Origin: a virus
IMG/VR virus record: IMGVR_UViG_3300009103_000090
Coordinates: 1 to 35,732 of that record
Length of the DNA: 35,732 bases
Direction: 5' to 3' (one strand)
Part shown: piece by piece, positions 4,932 to 12,833 of the stretch
How positions within the stretch are numbered: position 1 is the stretch's first letter
Layout: each line of letters starts with the position of its first letter
The notes under the pieces: generated by a model
The model's database searches: none
What the model was told of the DNA's origin: nothing
The model's input: only the letters and a program-made list of their open reading frames with translations
Program-made: the position numbers and the translations under genes

Positions 4932-5181
4932 TACAATTCCTTATAAGAAGGTTAGAGTTGAGTGGTGTGATATCTTAAGTGATAGTGGTTGGACTGATGA
5001 AAAAGGTTTTAACAAAATGAAATTGGCATTTCCTGTAAATGAAGGATGGGTGTTTTCTAAAACAGACGACGCAATTAAACTATTTGCTTCTTATGATAAA
5101 GAAGATGATGGTTCGTTTACTTTTGGGGATCGGACGATGATTCCTTTGGCTTGTGTGAAGAAGATTGTGAAACTTTCTTAA
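4861..5181 (+). CDS. Conserved hypothetical protein with basic N-terminus
   Basis: The first 25 residues are polybasic (PKRKPKKRRPRVRKR). The remaining 80 form a compact domain with several aromatic and acidic residues (VEWCDILSDSGWTDEKGF, LFASYDKEDDGSFTFGDRT) that looks conserved, possibly a small beta-barrel. The combination suggests binding to nucleic acid, but no family is recognised. Its first 71 nt are shared with the lysine-rich frame at 4800, and its last 65 nt are antisense to the 3' end of the small terminase gene. The true start could lie within the basic part, which cannot be settled here. Confidence 0.65.
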   Translation: MPKRKPKKRRPRVRKRIVNAIQPNTIPYKKVRVEWCDILSDSGWTDEKGFNKMKLAFPVNEGWVFSKTDDAIKLFASYDKEDDGSFTFGDRTMIPLACVKKIVKLS

Positions 5182-5701
5182 GAGTATTTAATCCTTCAGT
5201 ATCTTTCGGTTTAGGCATTGCTTTAACTTCTTTTTTAATTTCTTCTATTGGTTTAGCATTAAGTATAGGTGCGTAATCACTAATAATTTGTTTCATTTTA
5301 GCTTCTAATTCTAGCTCACTCATATCCTCAAGCTTACCAGTTTTTATTATTTTTTGTTCAATATATAATCCAGCGGCCTTTCCTCTATTTACTTCTGCGT
5401 TAACAGCAGATGAAAAACTACCACGTTTAATAGCTAACTCTCTGATCTTAGCTAGTTCAGCTATATGTCTTTCAAAATCTATTGCATATTTCTTTTGATT
5501 CTCTTCTCTCAATTCCCCAATATACTTAACTACCAGTGGTGATAACTTAGGGTTTTGTAGTTCACTTGCTTCAACACTAGCTCTGTCTTTGCTGTAGCCG
5601 GCAGCAATCGCAGCCTCTCTGGCGGTAGTCTTGCCTTCATTGTAGACAAGATACTCAGAGAATCTCTTTTGCATTTCAGTTAATCTTTTTGGTACTCCCA
5701 T
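5117..5701 (-). CDS. terS: Terminase small subunit
   Basis: The protein resembles phage small terminases of the Terminase_2 type. The N-terminal part has the DNA-binding helix-turn-helix region (LTEMQKRFSEYLVYNEGKTT, then EAAIAAGYS), a helical oligomerisation middle, and a low-complexity Ser/Lys/Pro tail. It recognises phage DNA and works with the large subunit during packaging. I place the start at the ATG at 5701 (194 residues), because the upstream TTG at 5737 falls on the promoter's -35 box. Then the ATG sits 7 nt behind a good -10 box, so the mRNA looks leaderless. The gene is on the opposite strand from, and about 5.6 kb away from, the large terminase. Its last 65 nt are antisense to the gene at 4861. 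Confidence 0.75.
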   Translation of the reverse strand: MGVPKRLTEMQKRFSEYLVYNEGKTTAREAAIAAGYSKDRASVEASELQNPKLSPLVVKYIGELREENQKKYAIDFERHIAELAKIRELAIKRGSFSSAVNAEVNRGKAAGLYIEQKIIKTGKLEDMSELELEAKMKQIISDYAPILNAKPIEEIKKEVKAMPKPKDTEGLNTLKKVSQSSSHKPKESSSDPQK

Positions 5702-5703
5702 AT

Positions 5704-5738
5704 ATTGACTTATAGAGTAATCTAAGGTAAAAGTCAAT
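5704..5738. promoter_or_regulatory. Symmetric divergent promoter, both transcripts apparently leaderless
   Basis: A perfect inverted repeat ATTGACTT (5704-5711) and AAGTCAAT (5731-5738) carries the -35 box of each direction. Minus strand: TTGACT (5737-5732), 17 nt, TATAAG (5714-5709), 7 nt, ATG at 5701. Plus strand: TTGACT (5705-5710), 17 nt, TAAAAG (5728-5733), 6 nt, ATG at 5740. Each -35 lies across the other strand's start region, so only one polymerase could sit here at a time. A repressor could also use the dyad. The plus-strand -10 is the weaker of the two. Confidence 0.65.
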
Positions 5739-6322: not shown

Positions 6323-6697
6323 ATGGCACCCGAGCGAAAATTATATCAAGATTTACGCAAACATCTCCCACAAATTAGCTGGACTAGGCTGGAAAATCTT
6401 AGTGGGTTGGGTACTCCTGATCTATTGGGCTACAATACTTCTGGCCACTTTTTCACTGTAGAATTAAAAGTAACGAAGGGTAAAAAGGTACGCCTGAGTC
6501 CACACCAAATTTCCTTCCATGTTAAACATCCTAAACATTCATTCATCCTTATCAGGCACCTCGGTCAACGGTGCCTGAAACTTGTTCCAGGGAACAAGGT
6601 CCTTGAGCTTGAAGCTCAAGGTATTAACGCTTGTGGCTTGAAGCTTGATGCTTGGAGCTTGTTGCTTGAGGCTTTTGAGAACCTGGACCCGAACTAG
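6323..6697 (+). CDS. VRR-NUC/resolvase-like PD-(D/E)XK nuclease
   Basis: The first 80 residues form a small nuclease fold: Glu24 in WTRLEN, PD at 32-33 (GTPDLLGY), ELK at 47-49 and Gln62 (SPHQISFH), the usual PD-(D/E)XK order E...PD...ExK...Q, as in VRR-NUC and phage Holliday-junction-resolvase-like enzymes. It probably cuts branched or damaged DNA. The last 35 residues are different: they are encoded by perfect hairpins (6552-6620) and a 7-nt repeat array (6629-6677), giving a Leu/Ala/Lys-rich tail that is likely non-essential. The 3' end is antisense to the minus-strand gene 6624-6818. Confidence 0.75.
   Translation: MAPERKLYQDLRKHLPQISWTRLENLSGLGTPDLLGYNTSGHFFTVELKVTKGKKVRLSPHQISFHVKHPKHSFILIRHLGQRCLKLVPGNKVLELEAQGINACGLKLDAWSLLLEAFENLDPN
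6552..6620. repeat. Three consecutive perfect hairpins
   Basis: Three inverted repeats follow one another: TCAGGCACC-N9-GGTGCCTGA (6552-6578), CTTGTTCC-AG-GGAACAAG (6581-6598) and CTTGAGCTT-G-AAGCTCAAG (6602-6620). They lie inside the 3' part of the nuclease gene and directly before the first GCTTGNN array. A further imperfect pair GAACCT/AGGTTC sits at 6679-6701. They could end transcripts from either side of this convergent junction, or be part of the repeat element itself. Confidence 0.6.
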
Positions 6698-6818
6698 GTT
6701 CTGGTTCCGGTTTGCTTGTAGCTTGTGGCTGGTCCTCCGGGGCCTGTTGCTTGACGCTTGCAGCTCGGATCTTTCTTAGTTCTTTGTAGTACTTGGGGTG
6801 TCGCCAGCAGTGAGTCAT
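6624..6818 (-). CDS. Small repeat-tailed protein, last gene of minus operon
   Basis: The N-terminal 20 residues (MTHCWRHPKYYKELRKIRAA) look like a real, conserved small protein with Cys/His/Trp/Tyr. The rest, 44 residues, is low-complexity and built from the 7-nt repeats (KQQAPEDQPQATSKPE, SSKHQASSHKR). It begins 5 nt after the stop of the GP88-like gene. Its last 74 nt are antisense to the nuclease gene. It could equally be a short gene whose original stop was lost when repeats expanded. Confidence 0.5.
   Translation of the reverse strand: MTHCWRHPKYYKELRKIRAASVKQQAPEDQPQATSKPEPEPSSGPGSQKPQATSSKHQASSHKR
6629..6677. repeat. GCTTGNN heptamer array, seven units (array 1)
   Basis: Seven tandem units: GCTTGTG, GCTTGAA, GCTTGAT, GCTTGGA, GCTTGTT, GCTTGAG and a degenerate GCTTTTG. 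The first five bases are fixed and the last two vary. Smaller clusters follow at 6714-6727 (two units) and 6742-6769 (four units, two degenerate). On the minus strand the unit reads NNCAAGC, which cannot form a stop in any frame. The array codes for the tail of the plus-strand nuclease and for the C-terminus of the minus-strand gene 6624-6818. Confidence 0.85.
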
Positions 6819-6822
6819 GAGT

Positions 6823-7422
6823 CTAGTGTTTAGGATATACTATGTGGGCCACGTCGCGGTCCCAGCAGGCTCTGCAGTCTCTGCATTTATTGCCTTGCTT
6901 AGAGGCCGGGCATGTCACCTGTGCGGGGTCCGTTGAGACTGAGCTCGTCCAGGGCCAGGCGCCCGAGGGTCCGGCGTTAACTTTGCTTGAGCTTAATCTA
7001 ATAATCATATTGTCTGGTACAGCTGCGCGGTCCGGCAGGAACTGACGTTCCTGTGTTGGCATCCAGTGCTTCGTACTAGGGGAATTTTTTGCTACTGTCA
7101 AGATATCATTCATATGGTCCGAGCTCTGGACGTCGCCGGAGTCGTGCCACCTGAACCACTTCGCGCGCTTCGTGAGCGTTGTCATGGCCTGGACCCACAG
7201 CGGGTTGGCCAGCGCCTTCAGGCGTCTATTCATTGCTTTAATTGTATTAGGCCACACGTACCGGAGCTTCAGGGCATAACAGCCAAAGCATGGAGTCCCG
7301 GGGACCTTGGCCAGCTTGGCGCCAGTCTTACAGGCCCAGGCCGGCAGGTTGATTGAAGGACCAGGCATCTTGCCCGGCTTACTTAAACCGCCTACTATTT
7401 TTTGTGCTTCTTTTACTAACAT
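6823..7422 (-). CDS. GP88-family (phage gene 88-like) protein
   Basis: The 199-residue protein matches the layout I know for the phage GP88 family: an early Cys (31), PCFGCYA at 44-50, RWHDSGDV at 91-98, a PTQE motif at 122-125 and a C-terminal cysteine cluster CPASKQGNKCRDCRACW (171-187). Seven cysteines in three groups suggest a metal or iron-sulphur site. The biochemical role of the family is not established. The gene is visibly GC-rich compared with the plus-strand genes around it. It follows the upstream gene by one base (TAA, T, ATG). The long plus-strand frames over it are shadows. Confidence 0.8.
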   Translation of the reverse strand: MLVKEAQKIVGGLSKPGKMPGPSINLPAWACKTGAKLAKVPGTPCFGCYALKLRYVWPNTIKAMNRRLKALANPLWVQAMTTLTKRAKWFRWHDSGDVQSSDHMNDILTVAKNSPSTKHWMPTQERQFLPDRAAVPDNMIIRLSSSKVNAGPSGAWPWTSSVSTDPAQVTCPASKQGNKCRDCRACWDRDVAHIVYPKH

Positions 7423-7423
7423 A

Positions 7424-7702
7424 TTATTTTATACCTTTTAATTGTGTCAATTTTAAGGCGCCTGTTGCTTGCTGCTCGTTGCTTGCTGCTTGTAGCTCTA
7501 ATTTAAAATATATAGGCTTCATCTCAGCCGGGAACCATGGACCGCACGCCTGAAGCTTGAGGCTGTGATAGCCCTGGAGATCCTTAGCGTCGATATCTCC
7601 CTGCAGCATCTGGACCGCTCGGTCCAGCTGCTTGTGCAGGTGATCAGGACATATGGGAATATCATCATCCACGGTATATGTGACTATAAATTTATGCTGC
7701 AT
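7424..7702 (-). CDS. Hypothetical protein with heptamer-encoded tail
   Basis: I start it at the ATG at 7702 (92 residues), which overlaps the upstream stop by 11 nt; the TTG at 7747 would extend it into the upstream gene. Residues 1-60 are soluble with an acidic loop (VTYTVDDDIPICPDHLHKQL, DRAVQMLQGDIDAKDL). From about residue 70 the sequence (FKLELQAASNEQQATGALKL) is encoded by the GCTTGNN array at 7460-7501. The function is unknown. It is the fifth gene of the minus-strand operon. Confidence 0.6.
   Translation of the reverse strand: MQHKFIVTYTVDDDIPICPDHLHKQLDRAVQMLQGDIDAKDLQGYHSLKLQACGPWFPAEMKPIYFKLELQAASNEQQATGALKLTQLKGIK
7460..7501. repeat. GCTTGNN heptamer array, six units (array 2)
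   Basis: Units in register: GCCTGTT, GCTTGCT, GCTCGTT, GCTTGCT, GCTTGTA, GCTCTAA. Variation is mostly at the third, fourth and last two bases. It lies in the 3' part of the minus-strand gene 7424-7702. A smaller cluster (GCCTGAA, GCTTGAG) is at 7548-7561 in the same gene. Confidence 0.75.
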
Positions 7703-7877
7703 CTGCTGCAAATCCTTCAAGTATGTTCTGGAGGTATCGTGGCTCAACTACGAAGTATTGGCCCATCATCTGGGCGTCATCATCGACGTTGTCTTTCCAC
7801 CACTCCTGCGCAAATTCAGTTAGCGGCATAACCAGGGCCAATGAGCCCTGATTAATTATTTCAAAATGCTCTTCCAT
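7692..7877 (-). CDS. Conserved small phage protein, 61 residues
   Basis: The ATG at 7877 is coupled to the upstream stop by TAATG; the in-frame TTG at 7925 would overlap the upstream gene and is less likely. The sequence (FEIINQGSLALVMPLTEFAQ, EWWKDNVDDDAQMMGQYFVV, EPRYLQNILEGF) follows a pattern I recognise from many phages: a GS-hydrophobic opening, PLT...A.EW, then VVEPRY. The function is unknown. No repeats are present in this gene. Confidence 0.65.
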   Translation of the reverse strand: MEEHFEIINQGSLALVMPLTEFAQEWWKDNVDDDAQMMGQYFVVEPRYLQNILEGFAADAA

Positions 7878-8131
7878 TAATCTAGAACCACCATGTATTG
7901 AGCAGGGAAATATTTCCTGAACCAATCAAGACCTTCTCTATGAGACTTCCAATCTTGCAACATCTCAGAGCCCATGATCACGTCATACACTGCGACAGCG
8001 AAGGCGGGCATTGTGCACGCTTGACCACTGAACCTGTTCTTAACTTCAATTTCTTTTAAAGGCTCATCTCCATAGTCTGCGCCTTCAAAAGGTAGTTTTA
8101 TTGTTTTATTATTATATTTAATTGTTTTCAT
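7877..8131 (-). CDS. Conserved hypothetical phage protein, 84 residues
   Basis: The reading frame opens at 8146, but on the minus strand AAAGGA sits 6 nt before the second ATG at 8131, which is therefore the likely start. The protein is compact and non-repetitive (NRFSGQACTMPAFAVAVYDV, then WKSHREGLDWFRKYFP), a sequence type I associate with marine phages. The function is unknown. It ends in a TAATG overlap with the next gene of the operon. Confidence 0.7.
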   Translation of the reverse strand: MKTIKYNNKTIKLPFEGADYGDEPLKEIEVKNRFSGQACTMPAFAVAVYDVIMGSEMLQDWKSHREGLDWFRKYFPAQYMVVLD

Positions 8132-8176
8132 ATTTTTTCCTTTCATGACTCAAGTTACCATCTCACCGGTGGCGCG

Positions 8177-8380
8177 TCAACAAAATTCTTTTGCTTGTTG
8201 CTTGTAGCTCGGGCCCGGCCCGCCGCCTGCTGCTTGGAGCTTATTTATATTATTTTTTTTAATTAGAATCATTCTAAACTGGTTCATATTCCCAGGACCA
8301 AGGTTGACCGGTCCTTGGATCCTGGAGGCTGTCATACCACGCTCTATAGGCATGCCTGGAGGGGCTACAGCACTTATCAT
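8177..8380 (-). CDS. Hypothetical protein with heptamer-encoded tail
   Basis: It starts in an ATGA overlap with the upstream 49-residue gene. The N-terminal 45 residues look conserved and Gly/Pro/Met-rich (VAPPGMPIERGMTASRIQGP, VNLGPGNMNQFRMILIKK). The C-terminal 20 residues (NINKLQAAGGGPGPSYKQQA) are encoded by the arrays at 8193-8245. The conserved part ends just where the repeats begin, so the tail appears to be a later extension. The function is unknown. Confidence 0.6.
   Translation of the reverse strand: MISAVAPPGMPIERGMTASRIQGPVNLGPGNMNQFRMILIKKNNINKLQAAGGGPGPSYKQQAKEFC
8193..8245. repeat. GCTTGNN heptamer clusters (arrays 3 and 4)
   Basis: Two short clusters: GCTTGTT, GCTTGTA, GCTCGGG (8193-8213) and GCCTGCT, GCTTGGA, GCTTATT (8225-8245), separated by a GC-rich 11-nt spacer. 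Both lie at the 3' end of the minus-strand gene 8177-8380. They have the same unit and the same phase behaviour as arrays 1 and 2. Confidence 0.7.
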
Positions 8381-8526
8381 TTTTTATACTTCTTTTTTTG
8401 AGTTATTATAAAAGTGGTATTATTCATCTTTTTTTGACTCATGTTGCCGCGTTCATCTTTGTATAATTCAAAGATGTTTCCTTTACCATCTATATAATAT
8501 CCGTCTAATGTTTTCTTTTTTGTCAT
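8377..8526 (-). CDS. 49-residue protein, first clear gene of minus operon
   Basis: ATG at 8526 opens a frame (MTKKKTLDGYYIDGKGNIFE, LYKDERGNMSQKKMNN) ending at TGA 8379-8377 in an ATGA overlap with the next gene. The composition, Lys-rich with a beta-hairpin-like DGYYIDGKGNIFELY, is that of a small folded domain. AAGGA lies about 13 nt upstream. A 12-codon mini-frame (8561-8523) overlaps its start and may couple translation. The function is unknown. Confidence 0.55.
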   Translation of the reverse strand: MTKKKTLDGYYIDGKGNIFELYKDERGNMSQKKMNNTTFIITQKKKYKK

Positions 8527-8848
8527 TTTAATACTTTATTCCTTTTTCTTTCATTGTCCATTTAAATGTGGCCCGCCCGATGCTCAGGGCAGACTAGTAC
8601 AATTATTTCAACCACAAGGGACCGGCTCATAGGCAGGGTTTCCGGTATGCATCCCTACTGGCCCAGCACCGCCCGATGCTCGCGACCTATAATATAGTTC
8701 ACCTTAGTAAACGCCAAAAAGTCCCAAGAGCTCTGGTACTGGTACAACTCAATATTTTGGCTTTCGCTACTTCTATTAGCTACCAGTAACCTGCTCTATC
8801 TAATAAAATAAACTATTGTTTTTTTATTTCGATTAATCATATTTAATA
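8527..8848. other. GC-rich intergenic region with direct repeats, divergent control region
   Basis: About 320 nt separate the minus-strand operon from the plus-strand cassette. CCGCCCGATGCTC is present twice (8573-8585 and 8669-8681), 96 bp apart. On the minus strand a frame of at least 44 codons ends at a TAG (8657-8655) and continues for 30 more codons to a TAA (8564-8562). The second part contains an ATG at 8630 opening 22 codons. Both repeats are read as Glu-His-Arg-Ala in this frame. Whether it is coding, a leader or a structured RNA is not clear. The part from 8700 to 8848 is AT-rich and contains GGTACTGGTAC and a T-run. Confidence 0.45.
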
Positions 8849-8876
8849 CTTGACTATCCTATTGTCAAGGTATAAA
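8849..8876 (+). promoter_or_regulatory. Promoter with dyad for accessory cassette
   Basis: CTTGAC (8849-8854) and GTCAAG (8864-8869) form an inverted repeat with a 9-nt centre. TTGACT (8850-8855) could be a -35 box and TATAAA (8871-8876) a -10 box, with a short 15-nt spacer. A regulator bound to the dyad would cover the -35 box and spacer. The expected start is near 8883, a few bases before the first ATG of the 8912 gene's frame. Confidence 0.45.
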
Positions 8877-8911
8877 AGAAAATAATTATGTTAAATAATA
8901 GAAAGGACAAT

Positions 8912-9946
8912 ATGCAAAAACAACATAGAATAAGATTGAATACAGAATACAGAAATAAGATTGCAAATCGTATGCGTATTCATCTTGAACAAGAGAACAC
9001 CCAAGAAAAAATAAAGTATGATGATTTAAAAGCTAATTTTAAAAACATACAAAATAAAACTTGGGAACTCGCAAAACAATGTGTCGAAAAACAATATCCA
9101 AAAGAAGATGTTGATATGGCACACTATCTGCAAGACAAATATCCTAATGTTAATACAATCGCAAAAGATAGTTGTTTTCACTTTGGTTATATGAAAACTA
9201 AAGAGAGAATTGACGAAAATGGCGAAGTCATTGACGAAGATGATAAGTACGAAACAAAGCACTTTGATTTCAAAATTGGTGGCGATATTAATGGTATTGA
9301 TAGACAAGAAAGAGAGGGACATAAACCTAATCTTGATGAAAGTGGAAGAAATTTTTCTTATGCTTATTTTCGTGATGAACTTAAAGCACAAGATAATTGT
9401 AATCCTGATATCAATATTGAAATGTTAGGCAAAGACCGAAATCCACACGAACAAAAATTTCAAGACGCAAACGACAAGTTTTTGGGATTAAGTGGTGGCT
9501 ATCGTGATAATCTTACAAGTTATTCTGCCGAGTGGGATAAGGAATATGAACTTGACCTTATTGGTAGAGAATATTGTAGAGATAGACAAATAAAAGTTTC
9601 AAGAGAGAATTTTGAAACTTTTTTAGAGTGGCAACAAGCTAAAGGACAATTAATTGTTTGTCATCAAAAATGGATTGAGAGCATTTTAAACCAGATGAAA
9701 GAAATTAAAATGGGTTTAAAAGGTTATCGTTATTTAGATGAAGCGATTGAGTTATGTACTGAACTTGGTTTGTCGGTTAATGACGCAGAAATTATAAGAG
9801 TTAATTCAACAGGGTTGACTATTTATAATCCCAAAAATCTTGCTGATAGGATTAAGGGCATGAAAAACAAAAATATCAGTAGAGAGGATAAAATAAAGGC
9901 GAGATTATTATACGAGAATAATCAAGCCAAATCTATGAGTAATTAA
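8912..9946 (+). CDS. Unknown 344-residue accessory protein
   Basis: The frame opens at ATG 8888, but GAAAGG (8901-8906) is placed for the ATG at 8912, my preferred start. The protein is hydrophilic, charged and without membrane segments. The N-terminal third is helical and basic (RIRLNTEYRNKIANRMRIHL). The middle has aspartate- and aromatic-rich segments (HFDFKIGGDINGIDRQ), and the C-terminal third is again helical with a basic end. I recognise no catalytic motif or family. It opens a cassette with its own promoter, and its ribosome site is nearly identical to those of two later genes in the cassette, so it appears to be part of an acquired accessory module. Confidence 0.75.
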   Translation: MQKQHRIRLNTEYRNKIANRMRIHLEQENTQEKIKYDDLKANFKNIQNKTWELAKQCVEKQYPKEDVDMAHYLQDKYPNVNTIAKDSCFHFGYMKTKERIDENGEVIDEDDKYETKHFDFKIGGDINGIDRQEREGHKPNLDESGRNFSYAYFRDELKAQDNCNPDINIEMLGKDRNPHEQKFQDANDKFLGLSGGYRDNLTSYSAEWDKEYELDLIGREYCRDRQIKVSRENFETFLEWQQAKGQLIVCHQKWIESILNQMKEIKMGLKGYRYLDEAIELCTELGLSVNDAEIIRVNSTGLTIYNPKNLADRIKGMKNKNISREDKIKARLLYENNQAKSMSN

Positions 9947-11345: not shown

Positions 11346-12833
11346 ATGGACTTGAATAATATAGATATTAGCAAGTTACCTGCGGATGTCCGGAAGCAAT
11401 TCAGACGATATCAGGTCATGCATGCTGAAAAAAAGATACAGAACAAAGCTAAAGACGATTTTCTATCTTTTGTTAAGTGCGTATGGCCCGAATTTATTGA
11501 GGGGCCCCATCACAGGCACATTGCAAAAAAATTTAATAAATTAGCCACAGGCGAGATAAATAGGCTAATTGTTAATATGCCTCCAAGGCATACAAAATCA
11601 GAATTTGCCTCCTACCTGCTTCCAGCGTGGATGGTGGGCCGTAATCCAAAATTAAAAATAATTCAAGCAACTCACACAGGGGAATTAGCAATTCGTTTTG
11701 GTAGAAAAGCAAAACATTTAATTGACTCCCAGGAATATCACAAAATTTTTGAAACAAAATTACAAGAAGACTCTAAAGCCGCGGGCCGTTGGGAGACAGC
11801 CCAGGGTGGTGAATATTTCGCCGCTGGTGTAGGTGGAGCAATAACGGGCCGTGGAGCTGATTTATTGATTATTGACGATCCACACTCGGAGCAAGATGCA
11901 ATGTCAGAAACGGCAATGGAAAATGCGTACGAATGGTACACTTCAGGACCACGTCAAAGGCTTCAACCAGGCGGAAAAATAATTTTAGTTATGACAAGGT
12001 GGTCAACTAAAGATTTGACTGGAATTTTATTAAAAAATCAAGGTGAAGTTAAGTCGGATCAATGGGAAATTGTAGAATTTCCGGCAATTTTGGACGATGA
12101 CACTAAAAAAGCAAAACCAGTTTGGCCTCAATATTGGAAATTAGACGAATTAGAGAAGGTAAAAGCAACATTACCGGTTGGAAAATGGAATGCACAGTGG
12201 ATGCAACGTCCAACATCGGAAGAAGGAGCCTTAATTAAGCGAGAATGGTGGATGAAATGGGAAAAAGACTGGGTTCCACCGTTAGAACACGTAATTCAGT
12301 CATACGATACCGCATATTTGAAAAAAGAAACAGCAGATTTTAGTGCAATCACTACTTGGGGCATTTTTAAGCCTGATCCTAACGAACCTAAGCAAGCATT
12401 GATACTTTTAGACTCTATAAAAGGACGTTGGGAGTTCCCAGAATTGCGTAGAAGAGCCCTTGCAGCGTATAAATACTGGGATCCAGAGACAGTTTTAATA
12501 GAGGCAAAAGCCGCAGGATTGCCATTAACCTATGAATTAAGGCAGATGGATATTCCTGTCGTAAACTTTACACCGAGCAAAGGAAATGATAAACATGTAC
12601 GTGTTAACTCGGTCGCACCGCTATTTGAGAGCGGAACGATATGGGCGCCCACTCAAAAATTTGCAGAAGAGGTGATCGAGGAATGCGCAGCTTTTCCACA
12701 TGGCGATCATGACGACCTTGTGGATAGTACAACACAAGCAGTTATGAGGTTCAGGCAAGGTGGATTAATTCAACACCCTGAAGATTATGTTGAAGAGAAA
12801 CTTCCTGATGTAAAAAGGCAGTATTATGGCTAA
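11346..12833 (+). CDS. terL: Terminase large subunit
   Basis: This is the packaging ATPase and nuclease. The 495-residue protein has a Walker A-like loop PPRHTKS at 79-85, Walker B LLIIDDPH at 173-180 and the coupling motif TRWS at 217-220. The C-terminal RNase H-like nuclease domain has acidic residues at Asp321 (SYDTAYLK), Glu386 (VLIEAKAAG) and the HDDLVD cluster 455-460. Length is typical. It acts at the portal, pumping DNA into the procapsid. The small subunit is on the other strand 5.6 kb upstream. The start has no visible Shine-Dalgarno, and the end overlaps the next gene by 8 nt. Confidence 0.95.
   Translation: MDLNNIDISKLPADVRKQFRRYQVMHAEKKIQNKAKDDFLSFVKCVWPEFIEGPHHRHIAKKFNKLATGEINRLIVNMPPRHTKSEFASYLLPAWMVGRNPKLKIIQATHTGELAIRFGRKAKHLIDSQEYHKIFETKLQEDSKAAGRWETAQGGEYFAAGVGGAITGRGADLLIIDDPHSEQDAMSETAMENAYEWYTSGPRQRLQPGGKIILVMTRWSTKDLTGILLKNQGEVKSDQWEIVEFPAILDDDTKKAKPVWPQYWKLDELEKVKATLPVGKWNAQWMQRPTSEEGALIKREWWMKWEKDWVPPLEHVIQSYDTAYLKKETADFSAITTWGIFKPDPNEPKQALILLDSIKGRWEFPELRRRALAAYKYWDPETVLIEAKAAGLPLTYELRQMDIPVVNFTPSKGNDKHVRVNSVAPLFESGTIWAPTQKFAEEVIEECAAFPHGDHDDLVDSTTQAVMRFRQGGLIQHPEDYVEEKLPDVKRQYYG

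Follow-up and report, generated by a model that had tools for sequence, protein, structure and literature searches.

Pelagiphages infect SAR11, the most abundant bacteria of the ocean surface, and little is known about the timing of genes in the lytic HTVC023P-type phages. A 35,732-nucleotide (nt) viral sequence (the complete IMG/VR record IMGVR_UViG_3300009103_000090; hereafter the window) raises this question in a concrete form, as it carries rows of the heptamer GCTTGNN in one small island, for which a first-pass annotation had proposed a binding-site array, a mobile repeat or a recombination target. What are these arrays, and to which other features are they tied? The window belongs to the HTVC023P/HTVC027P-type pelagiphages and is a relative of Pelagibacter phage HTVC027P, with 70% identity for the large terminase subunit and 55.5% for the GP88 protein. 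We argue below that the heptamers, present at almost every gene border of one small accessory zone, resemble neither a chance nor a stuttering repeat and have the appearance of a control element common to these phages and new to the literature; no description of such phage arrays was found in the open-access literature searched.

Heptamer arrays in one zone and on one strand

Four GCTTGNN arrays are present in the window, confined to a single strand and to 6.6-8.25 kb. With at most one mismatch, the double-unit pattern GCTTGNNGCTTG matches 20 times, always on the plus strand, over a span of 6629-8243, compared with a mean of 1.57 and a maximum of 6 matches in shuffled sequence. When all 1024 5-mers were considered at periods of 5-12, GCTTG at period 7 was the sole 5-mer with an exact run of more than three units (6 units, 6629-6668). 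Array boundaries were taken from a tolerant scan and, at an array score cut-off of at least 6, the dinucleotide-shuffled island gave 0.007 arrays on average against the four observed; neither random sequence nor the rest of the genome has such arrays at equal frequency. The first-pass annotation had counted at least five clusters, of which the one at 7548-7561 is just two units, one of them mismatched, and is not counted as an array here; its statement that there are none elsewhere in the window holds for the entire window and for related records of 12-64 kb.

On the minus strand, which encodes GP88, the unit reads CAAGCNN. Array B (6629-6675) has 7 units, 6 of them exact, at the convergent border behind GP88, where it overlaps the 3' end of a plus-strand VRR-type nuclease open reading frame (ORF); its homologue mostly has 9-10 units in relatives. 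Array A (6714-6767) has 8 units, 4 of them exact, with an imperfect middle. The GP88 5' array (7460-7492; 5 units, 3 exact) stands 9 nt before a TTGACA hexamer and within the C-terminal part of ORF 7424-7747, and the leader-end array (8193-8243), upstream of a TTGACG hexamer, consists of 3 units (2 exact) at 8193-8211 plus a partial piece at 8225-8243. The arrays occupy a leftward zone flanked by the genes for the small (5117-5737, Terminase_2) and the large (11346-12833) terminase subunit. This zone holds GP88 (PF17338) and small accessory genes, and the guanine plus cytosine (GC) content of the island is 45-47%, compared with 35% in the remainder.

Are such arrays found in related phages? 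When viral contigs were searched for runs of four exact units, at least 120 stretches emerged, and 118 of the 120 listed also encode one or more markers of the lineage to which the window belongs. Together, the repeat-scan stretches and the loci found through GP88 alone make up 150 GP88 loci. All 483 arrays in them are on the GP88 coding strand and within ~2.5 kb of GP88, with none outside the zone in any of the 150 loci; array length ranges from 3 to 12 contiguous units at period 7. Among the loci found without using the repeat, 53 of 58 have arrays, and 192 of 192 arrays share the orientation of GP88. The cultured phage HTVC027P carries four arrays at this location, on either side of the GP88 orthologue gp33, and none of such length elsewhere in its genome. 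As regards replication iterons or a terminase pac site, which a replication initiator or the small terminase would bind, the array zone is bordered by terS and terL, but in HTVC027P promoters are close by too. HTVC023P has neither the GP88 cassette nor arrays, and 023Pt_psg01 has GP88 and no heptamers. A mobile repeat family would be expected to leave dispersed copies in both orientations, whereas one zone and one strand are seen in all loci and in whole records; we therefore set aside the freely mobile repeat among the three original proposals. The ties of the arrays to the GP88 strand, to promoters and to one phage lineage were absent from the first-pass annotation.

A nearly frozen core and a free spacer

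The units of the 483 arrays contain 2432 exact cores, and adjacent NN spacers are identical in 6.8% of 2004 cases, compared with 7.4% expected from composition (9.3% identical in the subset found without using the repeat). These figures from relatives put numbers on the earlier remark that the last two bases vary freely, unlike slipped repeats. Because adjacent spacers are unrelated, the arrays were not made, or at least not kept, by slippage, and a slippage microsatellite or short tandemly repeated repetitive sequence, in which neighbouring units would be near-identical, was rejected. In 225 close pairs of anchored arrays (non-independent pairs drawn from 56 loci), the core positions mismatch in 0-9% of comparisons each and the two NN positions in 49% and 33%, with differences in the same pairs of 10, 7 and 34% at the three GP88 codon positions and of 37.5% in the promoter spacer. 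The NN pair thus changes at a rate close to that of third codon positions, whereas the 5-mer hardly changes at all. Just before an exact run, the unit often lacks its first C (NAAGC in 109 of 399 runs, background 0.5%), which makes AAGCNNC the better notation.

Could a protein hold the core in place? CAAGCNN is stop-free in every frame and any frame gives the same heptapeptide, and the arrays might primarily encode disordered QAxSxKx tails on tiny proteins, whose heads (HPKYYKELRK, HWRWLEANGYK and FFKNGTGWCVRHD) stand in frame before arrays in 39/42, 27/27 and 25/28 cases and vary more at third codon positions. The core, however, is conserved equally at synonymous or four-fold degenerate and at non-synonymous sites: exact cores make up 78, 83 and 83% by codon phase, and the four-fold degenerate site is A in 95%. 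Since the synonymous sites of the core do not drift, the constraint is on nucleotides rather than on the peptide. Some arrays, moreover, lack such heads or come right behind a non-coding leader, and we regard a primarily coding role as quite improbable, the codon-phase test having mostly rejected coding tails as the main cause. By these comparisons the arrays are best described as a nucleotide-level element under purifying selection on its core, and as neither a product of slippage nor a protein repeat.

Arrays at the predicted borders of transcription units

Exact TTGACA lies within 40 nt behind 69% of the arrays just before GP88 and 66% of those further upstream, compared with 2% of the 3' arrays and 1.9% at random. 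The array-to-TTGACA distance is zero in 81 of 180 dereplicated junctions, giving CAAGCTTGACA, and a -10 hexamer follows at a 17-nt spacer in 53/63 and 45/51 cases (98/114 together). Not every promoter has an array: the zone's first promoter (divergent, in the window, from the gene at 8888-9946) has none in 64 of 73 loci and one in 9 of 73, whereas later sigma70-type promoters have an array upstream in 77 of 88 cases (first vs later, Fisher p 3e-23). The final arrays, between GP88 and the convergent nuclease gene, are the longest, typically with 4-6 and 9-10 units. An intrinsic terminator (GC hairpin plus T-run) is near only 19 of the 483 arrays, about the random rate of 9/480. All of these positions appear to obey one rule, namely that each leftward transcription unit has an array where it meets its downstream neighbour.

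Borders of this kind could also be joints. If the module of promoter, small gene and array were exchangeable, the arrays would be direct repeats for swapping accessory genes, and indeed the cargo between arrays differs strongly among relatives, the island is richer in GC than its surroundings, and similarity breakpoints fall in arrays in 121 of 516 cases against 54.6 expected. This last excess, which bears on the recombination target proposed earlier, is confounded, as fast NN divergence alone ends alignments in arrays. In addition, free NN positions reduce the homology wanted for joints, no recombinase is found beside the arrays, and array-to-array deletion was not demonstrated, so that we consider recombination borders improbable.

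A proposed boundary element

Among the original proposals, core selection, near-neutral NN positions, the promoter position rule and the single strand favour binding sites. The reading that we favour, tentatively and at a little under even confidence, is that the arrays are boundary or operator elements bound by a multivalent factor. They would be cis-acting boundary elements of the leftward accessory zone in HTVC027P-type pelagiphages, each a head-to-tail row of about 3-10 AAGCNNC sites as read on the transcribed strand. Such a row would mark the passage from the end of one unit to the next sigma70-type promoter, as well as the last, convergent border behind GP88. A phage- or host-encoded factor could fill the row cooperatively, acting either on the duplex, as ribbon-helix-helix (RHH) dimers do on heptad operators, or on nascent RNA. 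The bound array might then separate units by blocking or ending read-through and gate the promoter directly after it, giving the genes behind it their own timing. The sequences themselves show the conserved core, the free spacers, the strand, the rule of position and the scarcity of intrinsic terminators at arrays; we infer the bound factor, the nucleic acid on which it acts, and any termination or gating by it. The DNA form may draw on the zero-gap -35 junctions and on the precedent of heptad operators (PMC9499535); the single orientation, the promoter-less arrays, the folded leader RNA and a tetramer variant described below speak for the RNA form.

Published infection RNA sequencing of HTVC027P places gp33 (GP88) and gp34 in their own temporal cluster at 6-9 h, apart from the early, middle and late classes, with the phage dependent on the RNA polymerase of its host during the entire infection (PMC12753301). 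Both gp33 and gp34 have an array directly before a TTGACA promoter. As the two genes are neighbours, their timing is only supportive and not proof.

The same data bear on another possibility, in which the arrays are operator or activator sites only, that is, duplex sites for a cooperative regulator of the adjacent sigma70 promoter, like the omega repressor on pSM19035, with the 3' arrays as extra looping or partition sites. The zero-gap junctions with their 17-nt promoter spacer and the separate timing of genes behind arrays (PMC12753301) fit this, and unit length, copy number and head-to-tail order resemble the WATCACW heptads, of which 7-10 units overlap promoters (PMC9499535). Yet promoters are missing from the longest arrays, which are also the most numerous, the orientation is single throughout compared with both orientations in omega heptads, and Pfam scans of ~35 proteins gave no RHH or ParA candidate; a purely operator role thus seems to us possible but rather unlikely. 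A bolder version of the RNA form, which we hold to be unlikely, is that a phage or SAR11 factor reads AAGCNNC rows (RAGC tetramers in sister phages) in nascent RNA and ends or insulates units that lack an intrinsic terminator; together with a covarying palindromic leader RNA, this would make up an RNA-based transcription-control zone across a very abundant ocean phage lineage.

Several observations weigh against the boundary reading that we favour. No promoter follows 271 of the 483 arrays; with more than half of them in this state, promoter control alone cannot be the explanation. In the window, the TTGACA just downstream of the GP88 5' array (7445-7450, minus strand) is not followed by a canonically placed -10, unlike in most relatives. 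Adjacency alone could explain the shared timing of gp33 and gp34. No RHH, helix-turn-helix or ParA candidate was recognised by Pfam in the ~35 neighbouring proteins from the window and HTVC027P, a subset of the genes in which a small RHH protein is easily missed. In two relatives (L188 and L167) rows of RAGC tetramers replace the heptamers at the same places, a poor fit to a strict 7-bp protein lattice; in 023Pt_psg01 and L167, such tetramers reach 37-49 per kb at these borders, compared with 3.5-6.7 elsewhere. Finally, all relatives share one lineage and are not independent. Even so, a conserved and easily recognised cis-element predicts start and end sites, a multivalent factor and a structured leader RNA, and these predictions can be checked on existing infection RNA sequencing data.

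Other sequences stand at the same borders around GP88 in heptamer-free relatives. L188 and L167 also have a G-rich GGGGGGAGGGTGGGCCC block beside the RAGC rows, L181 has GCAAGCTC octamers, and L176 has a perfect 14-mer, CTTGTACATAATAG.

A putative leader RNA and the gene neighbourhood

The stretch from the first promoter to the first array is a leader ~180-540 nt long; its ORFs are mostly very short, and its GC fraction is 0.32-0.50. The leaders of 50 loci (e.g. L059, L023 and L068) contain 1-3 copies of a palindromic module, TGATCCC-T-(8 nt)...(8 nt)-T-GGGATCA. In its inner arms 7.8 of 8 positions are paired, and as many as six pair types occur. Arm pairing with this many pair types is strong evidence for a folded RNA or single strand, and the module, which has no match in Rfam, is a candidate new structured RNA. 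A second structured-looking element lies directly before array A (L187:6648-6719 and 28 other loci), with YGGAYCAGG...ATTAGC, a C-GACG-G hairpin and GCGTGCACCTGGTCCGGGCC, and is sometimes inside the HPKYY tiny ORF. A covariance model of the 3' element (R1, outer stem only) showed no two-sided changes, and the element therefore remains a lead. Rfam gave nothing at the arrays, and a microRNA match in the window was discarded at 28 bits against a gathering score of 90. The Flavobacterium-1 RNA (RF02976) does occur in pelagiphage-type genomes, outside the arrays (L187:5477-5597, L086:2151-2276), in HTVC027P just upstream of the first array.

In the window, the first promoter of the zone, TTGACAATAGGATAGTCAAG...TAAATA (8840-8868, minus strand), has no array upstream. 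The region behind it (8250-8840, minus strand) has no family match, is GC-rich in places, carries a strong hairpin at ~8290-8330 and, to judge from its counterparts in relatives, is probably a structured non-coding leader transcript. Behind the next array follows a small accessory gene of 89 aa without a family (7877-8146, minus strand). More generally, the small genes behind upstream arrays encode variable accessory cargo, including 30-60 aa proteins that recur and share the motif QLKRIADALEEILRLVKKDQE (HTVC027P gp34 type). HTVC027P gp30 (L308:15768-15944), which forms its own temporal class in the published data (PMC12753301), has a weak ArfA match (E 4e-4, below the Pfam cut-off).

The GP88 gene (6823-7422, minus strand, 199 aa) is the orthologue of HTVC027P gp33. 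Its product has conserved cysteine motifs (CxxC, CxxCRxC), and its model has a predicted local distance difference test (pLDDT) score of 89.9, with only weak fold matches, the best being viperin and TIM-barrel enzymes at E 0.03 or worse. A 64-aa tiny ORF, MTHCWRHPKYYKELRK... (6624-6818, minus strand), starts 4 nt after the GP88 stop; the head of this predicted peptide is conserved and coding-like in relatives, and its C-terminal part is arrays A and B read as QAxSxKx-like heptapeptides. Between the two arrays lies a short hairpin (6691-6707), GAACTAGGTTCTGGTTC on the plus strand and of the AGAACCTAGTTCAGGTTCT type in several relatives. The convergent Hjc/VRR-type nuclease ORF (6323-6697, plus strand) has its 3' end read out of array B. 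A peptide deformylase gene (PF01327, E 1e-41) is present at 1243-1692.

Comparison with known systems

How do the arrays compare with heptamer repeats described before? The operator/parS sites of the pSM19035 omega protein, a ParB-type RHH protein, are contiguous 7-bp heptads, 7-10 per array, with at least 4 contiguous units needed for full activity (PMC9499535). The phage arrays share gap-free 7-bp units and a conserved core with looser edges, and several of them adjoin promoters. They differ in their core (CAAGC rather than ATCAC, so that the consensus WATCACW is not matched), in fully free spacers, in having one orientation and 3' arrays without a promoter, and in that no RHH or ParA gene was recognised nearby; the promoter overlap of the omega type is approached by the upstream arrays, which abut -35 boxes, but not by the 3' arrays. 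TAACTGA direct repeats, known from marine Beggiatoaceae, cyanobacteria and Bacteroidetes (PMC4679880), are likewise heptamer direct repeats of marine microbes with one orientation relative to genes, and have been proposed as the site of a multivalent regulator. They have seven fixed bases, lie a few nt from start codons and occur across a whole cellular genome, whereas the phage arrays have five fixed bases, at unit borders, and lie upstream of the -35 or behind a gene. As neither consensus nor placement fits, we file the phage arrays as a member of neither family.

Bacterial chromosomes (Pseudomonas abyssi, Alcanivorax, Flavitalea) carry GCTTGNN arrays with the same 5-mer and period. Repeat-rich genomes of Pseudomonas, Alcanivorax, Flavitalea and Fulvivirgaceae, for which no description of the repeats was found, include five with ~90-430 matches per genome to three exact units, on both strands (G002, G004, G005, G006 and G008; L239, L231, L257, L224 and L200). 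Short tandem arrays by the hundred in some bacteria could point to a neutral or selfish repeat, or a slippage microsatellite, with no function for the phage. The bacterial arrays, however, occupy both strands and often form inverted pairs separated by 3-97 bp; 70% of their adjacent spacers are identical and none of 156 lies next to TTGACA, whereas the phage spacers are uncorrelated, the cores selected and the positions fixed. The two appear to be different phenomena, and we judge a functionless repeat to be very improbable. A last parallel comes from RNA. The TRAP protein binds arrays of ~11 NAG triplets separated by 2-3 nt spacers in trp leaders. Although the TRAP unit is 3+2/3 nt long, the phage arrays, if read as RNA, resemble its sites in that short motifs follow one another on a single strand, separated by unconstrained spacers of fixed length.

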